From contig NZ_BEDT01000001.1 in assembly GCF_002260845.1 (NCBI RefSeq), positions 558,001-622,000 on the forward strand: 64,000 nt of DNA, read 5' to 3'. Below the pieces are notes generated by a model. The model did not search any database, was not told the origin of the DNA, and saw only the letters and a list, made by a program, of their open reading frames with translations. A program made the position numbers and the translations under genes. Below, piece after piece: positions 2,634 to 5,530 of the stretch. Position 1 is the first letter of the stretch; every line of letters begins with the position of its first letter. Source of the DNA: Pseudolactococcus reticulitermitis (GTDB taxonomy: Bacteria; Bacillota; Bacilli; Lactobacillales; Streptococcaceae).

Positions 2634-2673
2634 AAAAATCTCCTAGCAAGATTGAATTGCTAGGAGATTTTTT
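2634..2673. terminator. Bidirectional rho-independent terminator (FKBP gene / bacteriocin operon)
   Basis: A perfect 16-bp inverted repeat (arms 2634-2649 and 2657-2672, loop GATTGAA) carries a T-run on the plus strand and, because the arm starts with A5, a T-run on the minus strand too. It can end both the FKBP transcript and the convergent small-peptide operon. Confidence 0.9.
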
Positions 2674-2690
2674 GTCCGCATCACTTATTT

Positions 2691-2804
2691 TCAACAAGTA
2701 GGTAACATTTTATGACCTGATTTTCTTTCAATAAAACTGATTTCTTTTTTAGTAGTTGGGATGACAATAATTTCTGAAGTTTTTAATTTATCAACTATTC
2801 GCAT
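2691..2804 (-). CDS. 37-aa peptide, last gene of the bacteriocin locus, unknown function
   Basis: Short frame starting MRIVDKLKTSEIIVIPT and ending HKMLPTC. AGGAG lies 8 nt before the ATG, one of the best SDs in the region, and the stop is about 20 nt before the shared terminator. No signal peptide or TM segment; basic and amphipathic, with a single C-terminal cysteine. The same frame is open upstream back to a stop near 2905, so this could instead be the preserved C-terminal part of a longer, decayed protein. I do not recognise a family. Position suggests a role in, or a remnant of, bacteriocin immunity or regulation; this is inference only. Confidence 0.45.
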   Translation of the reverse strand: MRIVDKLKTSEIIVIPTTKKEISFIERKSGHKMLPTC

Positions 2805-2912
2805 TAAAGCTACTCCTAAACAAATCCCTGCCAAACAATGGTGATAGAGCTTTAAAATCAGAGGATGCAGAAACTGGATTATCCTCTTTTTTTGTTTATG
2901 CTATCAACAACC

Positions 2913-3170
2913 TTATCTACGGTAAAAGCTTCTATAAAATATGACGACTATCAAAAATACAATCTTCCAAAAATCTGATGGATAGTTGATATGTCTGGAT
3001 ATAAAAACAGTTATCGAAATGATTATTAGCAGAATAACTGCTTTGCTAACAGGTGTTTTCCCCGTGATATTTTTTCCGTTATACTGTCTTCCGTAGTGCG
3101 TTACAGTACGAGAGAAGAAGTTATAATCAAACCACCAACCAGAGCTAGTTTTTAAAGATATCCTTAAATA
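2913..3170 (-). pseudogene. Two-TM reading frame without a start codon, in frame after the stop of the 58-aa peptide
   Basis: 85 sense codons open directly after the TAA of the upstream peptide, in the same frame, ending ..FYRSFYRR. There is a polar, aromatic N-terminal part (SGWWFDYNFFSRTV...) and then two hydrophobic segments (about residues 44-58 and 67-80) joined by a short loop, closing in basic residues. No ATG, GTG or TTG occurs early in the frame, although AAGGA lies near its beginning. Its C-terminal half resembles the upstream peptide in layout (P-x2-x-A-(I/V)-L...TVF, loop with W, second TM, basic end). Most likely the second half of one four-TM protein split by a nonsense codon, or a gene that lost its start. 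Product unknown; possibly immunity. Confidence 0.45.
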
Positions 3171-3347
3171 TTATTCCAACCTTTTAACCTGTTTCATACT
3201 ACCTGCAAAATATGCTAGGCACACAACGCATAAAGAAATACAGCATTCCCACCAAGTCCATTTGCAAAATACAGTGAGCCCCAATATGATGAAAAGACAA
3301 ATAGCCAGTATAGCATCTTTAGGTCCAATCGGTAAATTTGTGTACAT
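3171..3347 (-). CDS. 58-aa cysteine-rich two-TM peptide coupled to the bacteriocin gene (candidate immunity protein)
   Basis: Starts MYTNLPIGPKDAILAICLFI and has two hydrophobic segments (about 11-28 and 34-50) joined by a KWTWW loop; six cysteines (17, 28, 35, 36, 40, 43), basic C-terminus. ATG lies 6 nt after the bacteriocin stop, and its SD (AGAGG) overlaps the last bacteriocin codons, so translation is coupled. Known class IIa immunity proteins are usually soluble four-helix bundles of ~80-115 aa, so this would be atypical; small membrane immunity peptides are known for other class II bacteriocins. The frame continues past the stop into another two-TM segment, so it may be a truncated product. 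Function inferred from position. Confidence 0.6.
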   Translation of the reverse strand: MYTNLPIGPKDAILAICLFIILGLTVFCKWTWWECCISLCVVCLAYFAGSMKQVKRLE

Positions 3348-3353
3348 AGTCTT

Positions 3354-3710
3354 TTATCCTCTATACCCACCAGGATTAGCTATTCCGCCAATTCCACCTG
3401 CAATGCCATTAACTAAGTTATGACCAATAGCAGTAGCAGTCTGTCCCCAATTGACCCAACAATGATTTTTATCGCAATTTAAACCATTCCCACCAGGAAT
3501 GACTCTTCTTGATTGAATAAAATAGTTGCTATCATATTGAACAGCGTTTTCTTCTTCAATGTCTGTTAATGTTATTTGTACTTGAGTTTCGTTGGAGATA
3601 ACATCATCGGCATGTACATCTGTTCCTGTGTAAAGAAAAATCCCCAACGTCATAACAAGAGCTACAGCTAAGTAAATAAACTTAGAATACTTTAAATTTT
3701 GAGTTTCCAT
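3354..3710 (-). CDS. Pediocin-like (class IIa-type) bacteriocin precursor with Sec signal peptide and acidic pro-region
   Basis: 118-aa precursor. Residues 1-34 form a Sec signal peptide (basic start, hydrophobic core 11-27, cleavage after VHA). Residues 35-67 are strongly acidic. Then come Arg68-Arg69 and a 49-residue C-terminus with a class IIa signature: GGNGL-x-C79-x4-C84-x-VNWGQ, then an amphipathic, glycine-rich tail ending NPGGYRG. Classical members have YGNGV-x-C-x4-C-x-V-x-W; here Tyr is replaced by Gly and Val by Leu. Cleavage after RR would give a mature peptide near the usual class IIa size; this is inference. The long pro-region replaces the usual double-glycine leader, and no dedicated ABC exporter is nearby. 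ATG at 3710 is chosen over upstream ATGs because a promoter -10 overlaps those and AGAAGG precedes this one. Expected target, by analogy: membranes of related bacteria via mannose-PTS. Confidence 0.75.
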   Translation of the reverse strand: METQNLKYSKFIYLAVALVMTLGIFLYTGTDVHADDVISNETQVQITLTDIEEENAVQYDSNYFIQSRRVIPGGNGLNCDKNHCWVNWGQTATAIGHNLVNGIAGGIGGIANPGGYRG

Positions 3711-3732
3711 AAACGAATAATACCTTCTTATA

Positions 3733-3761
3733 TTCATATTAGTGCAGTTAGCTACTGCCAA
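3733..3761 (-). promoter_or_regulatory. Promoter of the bacteriocin operon
   Basis: On the minus strand TTGGCA (3756-3761) and TATGAA (3733-3738) are separated by exactly 17 nt. Transcription would start about 20 nt before the bacteriocin ATG, just upstream of its AGAAGG SD, which excludes the upstream ATGs as starts. Confidence 0.65.
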
Positions 3762-3764
3762 AGC

Positions 3765-3781
3765 CCAAGTTCTAAACTTGG
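3765..3781. promoter_or_regulatory. Perfect palindrome abutting the bacteriocin -35 (candidate operator)
   Basis: CCAAGTT-CTA-AACTTGG, 7-bp arms, lies 3 nt upstream of the -35 hexamer. Location and symmetry suit an activator or repressor site; the nearby Rgg/MutR protein is the natural candidate. It also marks the boundary of the IS110 remnant, so a transposon-end origin is an alternative. Confidence 0.4.
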
Positions 3782-4175
3782 AATGTATGCTGTAGATTAG
3801 TACTTACCTCTAATCGCCTAGACGATTTTGGAAAGACTCTAACTACAGCTTTTTGTTAAATTGGTAATCAGTTTGATAACGCTCAGACGTTTTATATCGA
3901 ATAAGAATACAAGACAAAAAGCGAGTGAGTCTAACAACAGCTACACAATCAAAATAGATATGGAGACTATCATTATGACACTTTACGTTGGGATTGACGT
4001 CGCTAAAACAAACATGACTTAGCTATCTTGGGAGAACGTGGTGAGATTATAACCTGACACTTCCAACTCGTTAACTCGTGTCAAGGATTCAAAGCAAGGA
4101 TTCAAAGCCTTGAAAGAACATTTAGAACAACTTAATCAACCAACACCTAACATTTGTATCGCTTGAAATCTTACT
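3782..4175 (+). mobile_element. Decayed IS110-family element: non-coding left end plus broken transposase start
   Basis: From ATG 3975 (SD GGAG) the frame reads MTLYVGIDVAKTN, the start of an IS110/IS116/IS902 transposase with the first Asp of its DEDD catalytic set. One missing base after codon 12 shifts the frame; in the other frames the homology continues (LAILGERGEII, then FKALKEHLEQLNQPTPNICIA). A 13-bp tandem duplication (4082-4094 and 4095-4107) adds a second lesion, and everything after about 4175 is gone. About 190 nt upstream, with short inverted repeats (3812-3816/3823-3827 and 3848-3856/3914-3922), fit the non-coding left end that in IS110-type elements specifies the bridge RNA. 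Non-functional now. Boundaries are approximate. Confidence 0.75.
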
Positions 4176-4370
4176 TTATTCTTAACTTTTAATATAGTTT
4201 GTCTTTCCTTTTCTGATAATTAAATAAAATGCCACTCATAAGCTCTCACTTACTGCAATAGATTAGAAACAAAAACTAGCTAGTTAGAAAAATTTTTCTT
4301 GTTCCCCATATAAGTCGTTCGAACTAACTTACAAAATCAATTTTATCATACCAAAAACATTAAATTTAAA
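4176..4370. other. AT-rich gene-free stretch between IS110 remnant and rgg
   Basis: No convincing gene. The longest frame is 16 codons on the minus strand (near 4238-4189, MSGILFNYQK start), without the hydrophobic profile of an SHP pheromone. A short palindrome AACTAGCTAGTT is present. Probably scar sequence left by the insertion and decay of the IS element. Confidence 0.4.
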
Positions 4371-4421
4371 AAGTTGTGAATCTGCAACACTTTAGTTCCA
4401 AGTGTTGCGAATTCACAACTT
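4371..4421 (-). terminator. Long hairpin downstream of rgg, probable terminator
   Basis: 22-bp arms (4371-4392 and 4400-4421) with two central mismatches and a 7-nt loop. On the minus strand it is followed by TTTAAATTTAATG, which is only moderately T-rich. It lies 95 nt after the rgg stop. The length and symmetry are unusual for a plain terminator. Confidence 0.5.
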
Positions 4422-4515
4422 CGCTCTAATATTTTAAAGAGAAAGAACGAGAAAACTATGCTACATTTTTCTTAGTGTATCATATTTCTCTAGTAAGTTG
4501 CTTATTACGAATTAA

Positions 4516-5373
4516 TTAGCAATATTTTTCAATCTCCATGGCAAATCGATTAGCCATGCCAGTTGCACCTAATTTTTTCAACATGTCAATATCACTCTGA
4601 ACTTCTTTCAAAAGCTCAGAGTTTTTTTCTTTTTTATATTGCGAAAATTTCTTAAAAATATGTAGCGAAATTTTTTCCTCTATATCCCATTCTGTTAATA
4701 GATTATTAATTTCTTTTTCAATTCGCTCAGCTCGTCTGTAATAGCCTTTAAAAATCAGATAAACATAGAGATTTATCGCTGTTTTTTTTACAATTTTTCC
4801 ATTGAAAGCAATGATTTGAGATAATTCCTGACTTGCTAACATATCTTGTCCTAGATCATAAATTTCGTCATCATCTAAAATCTCTAAACATCTACCCAAA
4901 ATTTTGACTTCGAAAAATGTCCATTGCGGTATGCTTAATAAATATTTTTCGAGAAATTTTTTCTCAGCAGTTGTTATCAAATTCTCCTGAGATATATCAA
5001 GTATGGCTGATTTAGCTAGGATATTGAAGATTTTTTCCATTTTCAATCTAGCCTTTGGCTTTATCAAAGCTTTTAAGCCCTCTATGTCGCCTACCATGAC
5101 ATATGCTCTTATCTTTTTATTAAATACACAATATTGACTTGGCTCTATTGACATCAAAGCAACAAATTCACTTGCGGTCATATTAAGCCCATTTATCGCT
5201 GCTAAAAATCTGTCAGCTGAAAGCATACTTTCCCCACTTTCAAAACGAGATAACTGCGATTTATCAAGATAACTACTAGACATTGCAACATCAGAGAGCG
5301 TATAGCCTCGTTCTTCTCGAACTTGCTTATAATATGCGCCAATTTCTTGTGTTTCTACCACTTTTTTTGACAT
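4516..5373 (-). CDS. Rgg/GadR/MutR-family transcriptional regulator
   Basis: 285 aa, the family's normal length. N-terminal HTH_3 domain (about residues 10-65; ISQSQLSRFE-like segment here LDKSQLSRFESGESMLSADRF) followed by an all-helical C-terminal ligand domain rich in K/E/I/L. Rgg proteins often sense short peptide pheromones and frequently control adjacent bacteriocin or acid-stress genes. It is transcribed alone from its own promoter, in the same direction as the bacteriocin operon ~800 bp downstream, with the IS110 scar between. No SHP-type pheromone gene could be found next to it. Base composition is AT-rich like the bacteriocin island. Control of the bacteriocin promoter is plausible but unproven. 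Confidence 0.88.
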   Translation of the reverse strand: MSKKVVETQEIGAYYKQVREERGYTLSDVAMSSSYLDKSQLSRFESGESMLSADRFLAAINGLNMTASEFVALMSIEPSQYCVFNKKIRAYVMVGDIEGLKALIKPKARLKMEKIFNILAKSAILDISQENLITTAEKKFLEKYLLSIPQWTFFEVKILGRCLEILDDDEIYDLGQDMLASQELSQIIAFNGKIVKKTAINLYVYLIFKGYYRRAERIEKEINNLLTEWDIEEKISLHIFKKFSQYKKEKNSELLKEVQSDIDMLKKLGATGMANRFAMEIEKYC

Positions 5374-5448
5374 CTTTTCCCTACCTCTATAAGTTCAACA
5401 GTGTGTAAAATCAAATAAAATAACGATTAAAAACATTTCCCCCTTTAA

Positions 5449-5477
5449 ATTATACTGTTTTTATAGCTTGTTATCAA
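5449..5477 (-). promoter_or_regulatory. Promoter of the rgg gene
   Basis: TTGATA (5472-5477) and TATAAT (5449-5454) on the minus strand with exactly 17 nt between them, about 75 nt before the rgg ATG. Near-consensus vegetative promoter. Confidence 0.75.
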
Positions 5478-5493
5478 TTATGTTTTAACGATA

Positions 5494-5530
5494 TAAAAAA
5501 ACACTGAAAGAAAGTTCATCTCAGTGTTCT
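5494..5530 (-). terminator. Terminator of mgtE
   Basis: AACACTGA/TCAGTGTT stem (5500-5507 and 5521-5528) followed on the minus strand by T7, 50 nt after the mgtE stop. Confidence 0.8.

Follow-up and report, generated by a model that had tools for sequence, protein, structure and literature searches.

A pediocin-type core behind a Sec-type signal and an acidic Arg-ending segment in Pseudolactococcus reticulitermitis, and a leader module shared with unrelated secreted proteins

Introduction

Several described systems resemble the locus studied here in one part or another. Double-glycine peptides begin right after the GG of their leader, and the cognate immunity protein of class IIa bacteriocins is a soluble four-helix protein of the EntA_Immun type. 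In lantibiotic systems, which use ABC export, NisP and EpiP remove the leader extracellularly after Arg and thereby activate the exported peptide. Enterocin P, bacteriocin 31 and hiracin JM79 pair a pediocin-type core with a Sec signal, consist of these two parts only and are processed by signal peptidase, as described in the accessible text of PMC3546714, which also gives GL(V)xCxKxxCxVxW as the consensus of the class IIa group. In EntV (enterocin O16) of E. faecalis, signal, pro-segment and core follow one another, and maturation proceeds from 170 to 136 and then to 68 amino acids, with GelE as the second extracellular protease (accessible text of PMC6606811).

Here we analyze a predicted bacteriocin gene of P. 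reticulitermitis, located in a 64,000-nucleotide stretch of contig NZ_BEDT01000001.1 (hereafter, the window). Its product would share the pediocin-type core and the Sec signal with enterocin P and its like, but adds an acidic stretch of 35 residues that holds an Arg site, and a GGNGL box. With EntV it shares the order of the three parts, and EntV-like precursors have a similar N-terminus, but the EntV core is unrelated and the DIEEEN..YD motif is absent there; the EntV-type model NF058576 did not match the window protein up to E 10, and did match the EntV-like precursor L017. An Arg cut would be held in common with the NisP and EpiP systems, but those peptides are lantibiotics exported by ABC transporters, and the window genome has no subtilase match. 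We give a probability of about three in four to the reading developed below, in which a pediocin-type core would be carried on a modular Sec leader that is removed by two cuts.

Results

A three-part precursor

The precursor frame extends on the minus strand, which an earlier reading had left unstated, from an ATG at 3710 to a TAA stop at 3354-3356, and falls into three parts (Table 1). Since an intact copy with 96% protein identity is found in L. raffinolactis NBRC 100932 (locus L012), of the same genus as the window genome (a 2.17 Mb assembly belonging to the Lactococcus raffinolactis group), it is not a chance ORF. Between the two copies dN (0.018) is lower than dS (0.054), on few changes, and the core alone shows one nonsynonymous and no synonymous change, too few for judging selection.

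Table 1. Features of the locus, with positions in the window and the basis of each assignment
Feature	Positions	Strand	Basis
Putative bacteriocin precursor ORF, 118 aa	3354..3710	-	PF01721 above cut-off; intact relative in L. raffinolactis NBRC 100932
Putative Sec-type signal peptide, residues 1-34, VHA end	3609..3710	-	By eye; EntV-like N-termini similar
Acidic pro-segment, residues 35-69, carries TLTDIEEENAVQYD and IQSRR	3504..3608	-	Left-out profile; site comparison
Pediocin-type core, residues 70-118	3357..3503	-	PF01721 over residues 74-104; PDB class IIa chains
58-aa hydrophobic ORF, candidate immunity protein	3171..3347	-	Starts 6 nt past bacteriocin stop
IS110-like element remnant, internally deleted	3727..4206	+	Both ends copied in G002; match to annotated IS110 family transposase of L. 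formosensis
Palindrome 4371-4421 beside TATGAT box 4345-4350	4345..4421	-	By eye; possible Rgg-controlled promoter
Rgg-family regulator, 285 aa	4516..5373	-	PF21259 Rgg_C 3.9e-23; TIGR01716 6e-26; open in L012
13-codon hydrophobic ORF MFLIVILFDFTHC	5395..5436	-	Purine-rich ribosome-binding site; TTGATA-17-TATAAT; one residue changed in L012
Terminator-like hairpin near exchanged-block border	2634..2672	-	

The first two parts are as an earlier sequence-only reading had drawn them. The N-terminus up to VHA34 resembles a Sec signal by eye, and the N-terminal part of the precursor gives 39% over residues 1-66 and 29% over residues 1-77 against the EntV-like E. faecalis precursors L016 and L017. 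The segment behind it is acidic (net charge −6 for residues 35-69 and −8 for residues 35-67) and ends in SRR (Arg68-Arg69), and the core, of 4872 Da, has a net charge of +1. Predicted folds were poor (mean pLDDT 37.0 for the precursor and 51.5 for the core alone) and carry no weight either way, so that the structure prediction proposed at that time for residues 70-118 neither supports nor weakens the assignment.

The core is of the pediocin kind

The same reading had called residues 70-118 pediocin-like and had named a missing profile match as a result that would speak against it. A match was found, to Pfam Bacteriocin_II (PF01721, residues 74-104) at 34.2 bits and E 2.6e-8, above the curated cut-off of 24.5 bits, and in phmmer searches the core matched the solved class IIa chains of carnobacteriocin B2 (3.5e-5), leucocin A (2.5e-4) and curvacin A (4.3e-4). 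The CxxxxC pair (C79, C84) in the N-terminal half is kept, as is VNW; the box reads GGNGL in the window and in L012 alike and lacks the class IIa Tyr, and outside this residue the core agrees with the group consensus as given in the accessible text of PMC3546714. Of the two box changes that had seemed atypical, Tyr-to-Gly is indeed unusual, but Val-to-Leu is ordinary, a YGNGL box being reported for class IIa in the accessible parts of PMC4155820 and PMC3546714.

At E 0.001 the core was matched in 8 of 146 genomes, its own included. The nearest core outside the genus among these genomes (46% over 48 residues) belongs to L003, a peptide of G048 which we take to be ubericin A-like class IIa and which has a double-glycine leader and a YGNGL box. 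No NCBIfam model describes the core. Judged by its profile and chain matches it is of the pediocin kind, and the peptide very probably acts like a class IIa bacteriocin. We have nevertheless not filed it as strict class IIa, because the box Tyr is missing and the leader departs from that of the class, with 35 residues between the Sec signal and the core.

The leader recurs on unrelated cores

Searching plasmids with the precursor (tblastn) retrieved eight records, in which the best match per record spanned N-terminal residues 1 to 61-77 at most and never reached 80% of the query. Three of them (L. lactis LB7, E. faecium pSDGJQ5 and E. faecalis LR962625) resemble the window precursor as far as Arg68 and continue with a different core. 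We sorted 20 loci with such leaders (among them the identical pair L020 and L025, and L015 and L021 with one core in common) into type A, with the pediocin core (2 loci); type B, with a two-Cys GGTPNxCN core (6); type C, whose core is rich in glycine and about 100 residues long (3, of which one was assigned by eye); type D, with a hydrophobic-hairpin core (4); and type E, with longer precursors (4), leaving L137 unclassified. Within type E, the NlpC/P60 and LnsA matches of L033 and L139 are weak, all being below cut-off, L135 is linked solely at E 0.017-0.039, and the truncated L035 was assigned by eye. Among the 17 cores that could be excised, no match across types A to E was found below E 0.3.

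A pro-segment profile built from 11 sequences, with the window and L012 left out, recovered the window precursor at 36.6 bits (3.7e-10), and none of the 615 other reading frames of the window or of 2000 in-place shuffles scored above 10.2 bits. A profile of type B alone gave 45.0 bits (best decoy 11.9), and one of types C to E alone 20.3 bits (best decoy 11.0). The window precursor carries the pro-segment feature L-x-[DT]-IE...YD after its Sec-type signal, and no Pfam or NCBIfam model spans the pro-segment in the proteins scanned. When searched on its own (alignment A2), the pro-segment was matched at E 0.01 in 10 of 395 genomes of Lactobacillales, five of them already sources of A2 and five new, the latter from further families of the order; at E 0.001 it matched in 5 of 103 Enterococcaceae, with no new ones, and in 2 of 398 genomes of Bacilli, both Lactobacillales. 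The matches of an alignment that included the signal peptide (A1) were mostly signal-peptide look-alikes (at E 0.01, 38 of 105 genomes in one set and 47 of 335 in another), and A2 took its place.

According to these comparisons the signal and acidic segment form a module that Lactobacillales carry on five or more unrelated secreted cores. The three-part layout that had been called unusual is present, but its leader is not peculiar to this gene and EntV offers a bacteriocin precedent (accessible text of PMC6606811). In the literature covered, with many subscription papers outside its scope, we found neither an account of such a leader module nor one of a single core that occurs with a Sec pro-leader as well as with a double-glycine leader.

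Some of these loci show further features. The type D precursors L136, L134, L029 and L027 combine the pro-segment with R-Q-[KP]-R and a hydrophobic hairpin and end in variable C-terminal tails, a layout that recalls small polymorphic toxins; a nuclease reading of the tails of L134 and L136 found no support in profile scans. The secreted proteins L033 and L139 (G188), of about 370 aa, combine the pro-segment and a basic site with the weak enzyme resemblance. In the L. lactis LB7 plasmid (L013 5960-6050) the first part of the precursor's signal peptide is in a different frame from the annotated CDS, near an A run, and in an E. faecalis plasmid about 2 kb separate a type B precursor (L021 4579-5298) from a predicted vanY-like gene.

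The proposed second cut and a candidate protease

A basic site ending in Arg follows the pro-segment in 17 of the 20 loci, the exceptions being L138 (full length), L035 (at a contig edge) and L137 (a short ORF). In types A and B (8 loci) it ends 8-9 residues past the YD, a position at which shuffled sequences match in 1-7%, and at this fixed spacing, in these two types only, the site is convincing as judged against the shuffles. In types C to E the sites lie 38-94 residues past the motif and are singly weak, because shuffles do as well in 14-41%.

Type B, which we take to be the Bac32/enterocin IT kind, has the acidic segment, the YD-x4-IQxR spacing and the Sec design in common with the window (E. 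faecium pSDGJQ5, E. faecalis LR962625, L. lactis LB7 and E. gallinarum pEG001), but its core, with two Cys near the C-terminus, is unrelated to class IIa. Double-glycine leaders, too, are found with type B cores, in L022 (Ligilactobacillus salivarius), L023 (E. faecalis, annotated as enterocin 1071A family) and L024 (L. garvieae); there the core is preceded by GG, and in the Sec versions by QER or QKR. Aligning the two E. faecalis junctions sets GG/GWADFLGG (L023) against QER/GWGDFLGG (L015), with 43 of 48 core residues identical, and LB7 and L024 agree in 39 of 48 core residues, with junctions that differ by about two residues. Because the double-glycine relatives start after GG, the Sec versions of type B would have their first residue behind the Arg or close to it. 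The same YD-x4-IQxR is present in the window leader, and we infer that its second cut falls after Arg68 or Arg69. The EntV-like L016 differs in this respect, since counting 68 residues back from the protein end places the cut before LGSC and not after Arg.

Neither of the two activators that the known systems bring to mind was matched. A NisP-like subtilase gave no match in the window genome or in NBRC 100932 (control positive in 7 of 14 genomes), and a GelE-like M4 protease gave none in these two genomes either (control positive in 2 of 14), with assembly gaps possible in both searches. One HtrA-type protease each was found in the window genome and in NBRC 100932; we weakly favor HtrA as the leading candidate for the second cut, and we know of no Arg specificity of this protease. 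A C39 peptidase was matched once in the window's own genome, on contig C3 (the window is on C1), and not in NBRC 100932. The absence of a nearby ABC exporter, noted earlier from the letters, is correct for exporters of the bacteriocin type (C39); an ordinary amino-acid ABC transporter, assigned by eye, lies at 671-1977. In L. lactis, HtrA is described as the sole housekeeping surface protease in the accessible text of PMC545053.

The downstream 58-aa protein

The ORF directly downstream encodes a hydrophobic protein of 58 aa, unlike a four-helix immunity protein of the EntA_Immun type, with no Pfam match above cut-off. The gene recurs at a second locus, where both genomes have it intact: in the window genome it stands alone (L106), and in NBRC 100932 its neighbor is a decayed copy of the bacteriocin gene (L009/L107). 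Between the window and L012 the gene has dN 0 and dS 0.19; compared with L106 the values are 0.03 and 0.43, and with L107 0.05 and 0.83. The copies are under purifying selection, as orphan immunity genes behave. Relatives were matched in 9 of 195 genomes, with some copies broken. In the Enterococcus plasmid loci L143-L145 they are annotated as hypothetical or, once and despite a length of 69 aa, as "DNA helicase UvrB". A 105-aa ORF beside the relative in G010 was considered as a class IIa immunity protein and found no Pfam or NCBIfam support.

The upstream region and its exchange

Upstream of the precursor gene, an IS110-like remnant begins 16 nt before the ATG in the opposite orientation, in the window and in L012. 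A promoter scan returned no minus-strand site between 3711 and 4045, and the TATGAT box seen by eye beside the palindrome is absent from its list. The stretch 4311-4394, with this box and half of the palindrome, recurs whole or in part in G000 (contig C5), G001-G003 and G005-G010, and at three of these places (G005:C23, G006:C95 and G008:C6) it adjoins another rgg-like match. It is possibly a shared Rgg-controlled promoter of the genus. The 13-codon ORF ahead of rgg may, speculatively, be a short pheromone or an rgg leader.

In 250-base bins, the region 2750-5500 is 93.6-98.8% identical between the window and NBRC 100932 and its flanks are 79.4-90.0% identical; because identity in it is far above that of the flanks, the block at about 2.7-5.5 kb of the window has been exchanged as a unit. 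In the congener G008 a Sec-type precursor of 174 aa (L108 4114-4811), with a QR/G site and accompanied by a 55-aa hydrophobic ORF, is immediately preceded by the same palindrome and an Rgg orthologue (79% at the DNA level, with the frame broken near its end). That precursor had no Pfam match above cut-off and no NCBIfam match, and PHROGs gave no match at E 0.01 for six proteins, the two G008 ORFs among them. From the G008 arrangement, the Rgg and promoter of the window were probably once part of such a cassette, before the IS110-like insertion. Because the remnant separates the gene from the possible Rgg-linked promoter, its expression is uncertain.

Discussion

The proposed maturation route, read from the sequence, is as follows. 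Residues 1-34 would direct the precursor to the Sec translocase and be taken off by signal peptidase. The acidic segment (35-69) would remain on the exported peptide, probably holding the cationic core inactive or soluble, and would display the IQSRR cutting site; a surface or secreted protease would then cleave after Arg68 or Arg69, releasing a peptide of about 49 residues that, by family, should hit target cells via the mannose-PTS. The comparison with related precursors argues for Sec export and for a further cleavage at the basic site, and the latency role of the segment and the mannose-PTS target are inferred.

A simpler route would be that of an ordinary Sec-dependent class IIa peptide with a single cut, in which the acidic segment is kept as a long N-terminal extension, just as enterocin P, bacteriocin 31 and hiracin JM79 are processed by signal peptidase (accessible text of PMC3546714). 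We consider this improbable, since the segment is conserved on unrelated cores, its Arg end lies at a fixed spacing in types A and B, and the double-glycine relatives of type B start their core directly at GG, which places the segment outside the active peptide there. Far less credible still is a double-glycine bacteriocin that a C39 exporter, encoded elsewhere, would cut behind the GG of PGG. A GG pair does stand just ahead of NGLNC, and the single C39 match of the genome, on another contig, could supply the enzyme, but NBRC 100932 carries the same gene without a C39 match, a Sec-type signal precedes the precursor, the residues before the GG are unlike a double-glycine leader, and the cut would strip the start of the pediocin box. 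The two-cut reading is the one we prefer.

Two further alternatives concern the surroundings of the gene. We hold it at about even odds that the 58-aa protein gives immunity, and rate a shade below even that it is a small membrane protein of other function that merely lies 3' of the bacteriocin gene. Its relatives, 47-53% identical among the matches listed and mostly over 53 residues, occur in 234 plasmid records (233 from Enterococcus), and in the three plasmid records inspected they adjoin genes with UV-resistance annotations, in one case with a Y-family polymerase; relatives in G003, G007 and G010 have no recognizable bacteriocin nearby, and G010 and G001 hold broken copies. Such a function accords less well with the 6-nt distance between the bacteriocin stop and the ORF, with the two loci that pair the gene with an intact or decayed bacteriocin sequence, and with the purifying selection on L106, where the bacteriocin is gone. 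It is also conceivable, though doubtful, that the bacteriocin gene is a silenced relic, cut off from its Rgg-linked promoter by the IS110-like insertion, with selection acting on the 58-aa protein only. The position of the remnant in both strains would fit, as would the G008 promoter region lying directly ahead of a Sec-type precursor and the second locus, which keeps the 58-aa gene with the bacteriocin decayed (NBRC 100932) or absent (own genome). However, the precursor is open in both strains with dN below dS, albeit on few changes, the high identity of the block (94-99%, compared with 79-90% outside) points to recent spread, and read-through from upstream is possible.

Beyond this locus, the two-cut reading may extend to a general route by which Lactobacillales mature antibacterial proteins exported through Sec, alongside the double-glycine/C39 route. 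The pro-motif [ST]L-x-[DT]-IE-x-x-N...YD would mark the precursor, keep it latent and be recognized by a common Arg-cutting surface factor, and cores would swap between both kinds of leader. Just as tentatively, the cores served would comprise the pediocin, the two-Cys enterocin, the glycine-rich protein of about 100 residues, the hydrophobic-hairpin protein and an NlpC/LnsA-like enzyme. We rate this wider reading lower, as something we doubt more than believe; the poor chance control for basic sites in types C to E lowers its odds slightly. If the leader is such a module, searching for it would find secreted antibacterial proteins, whose cores could then be read off, and the ends of the mature forms would be predicted for several enterococcal and lactococcal proteins that lack annotation. 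It would also raise a direct question, namely which surface protease activates the proteins that bear this leader.
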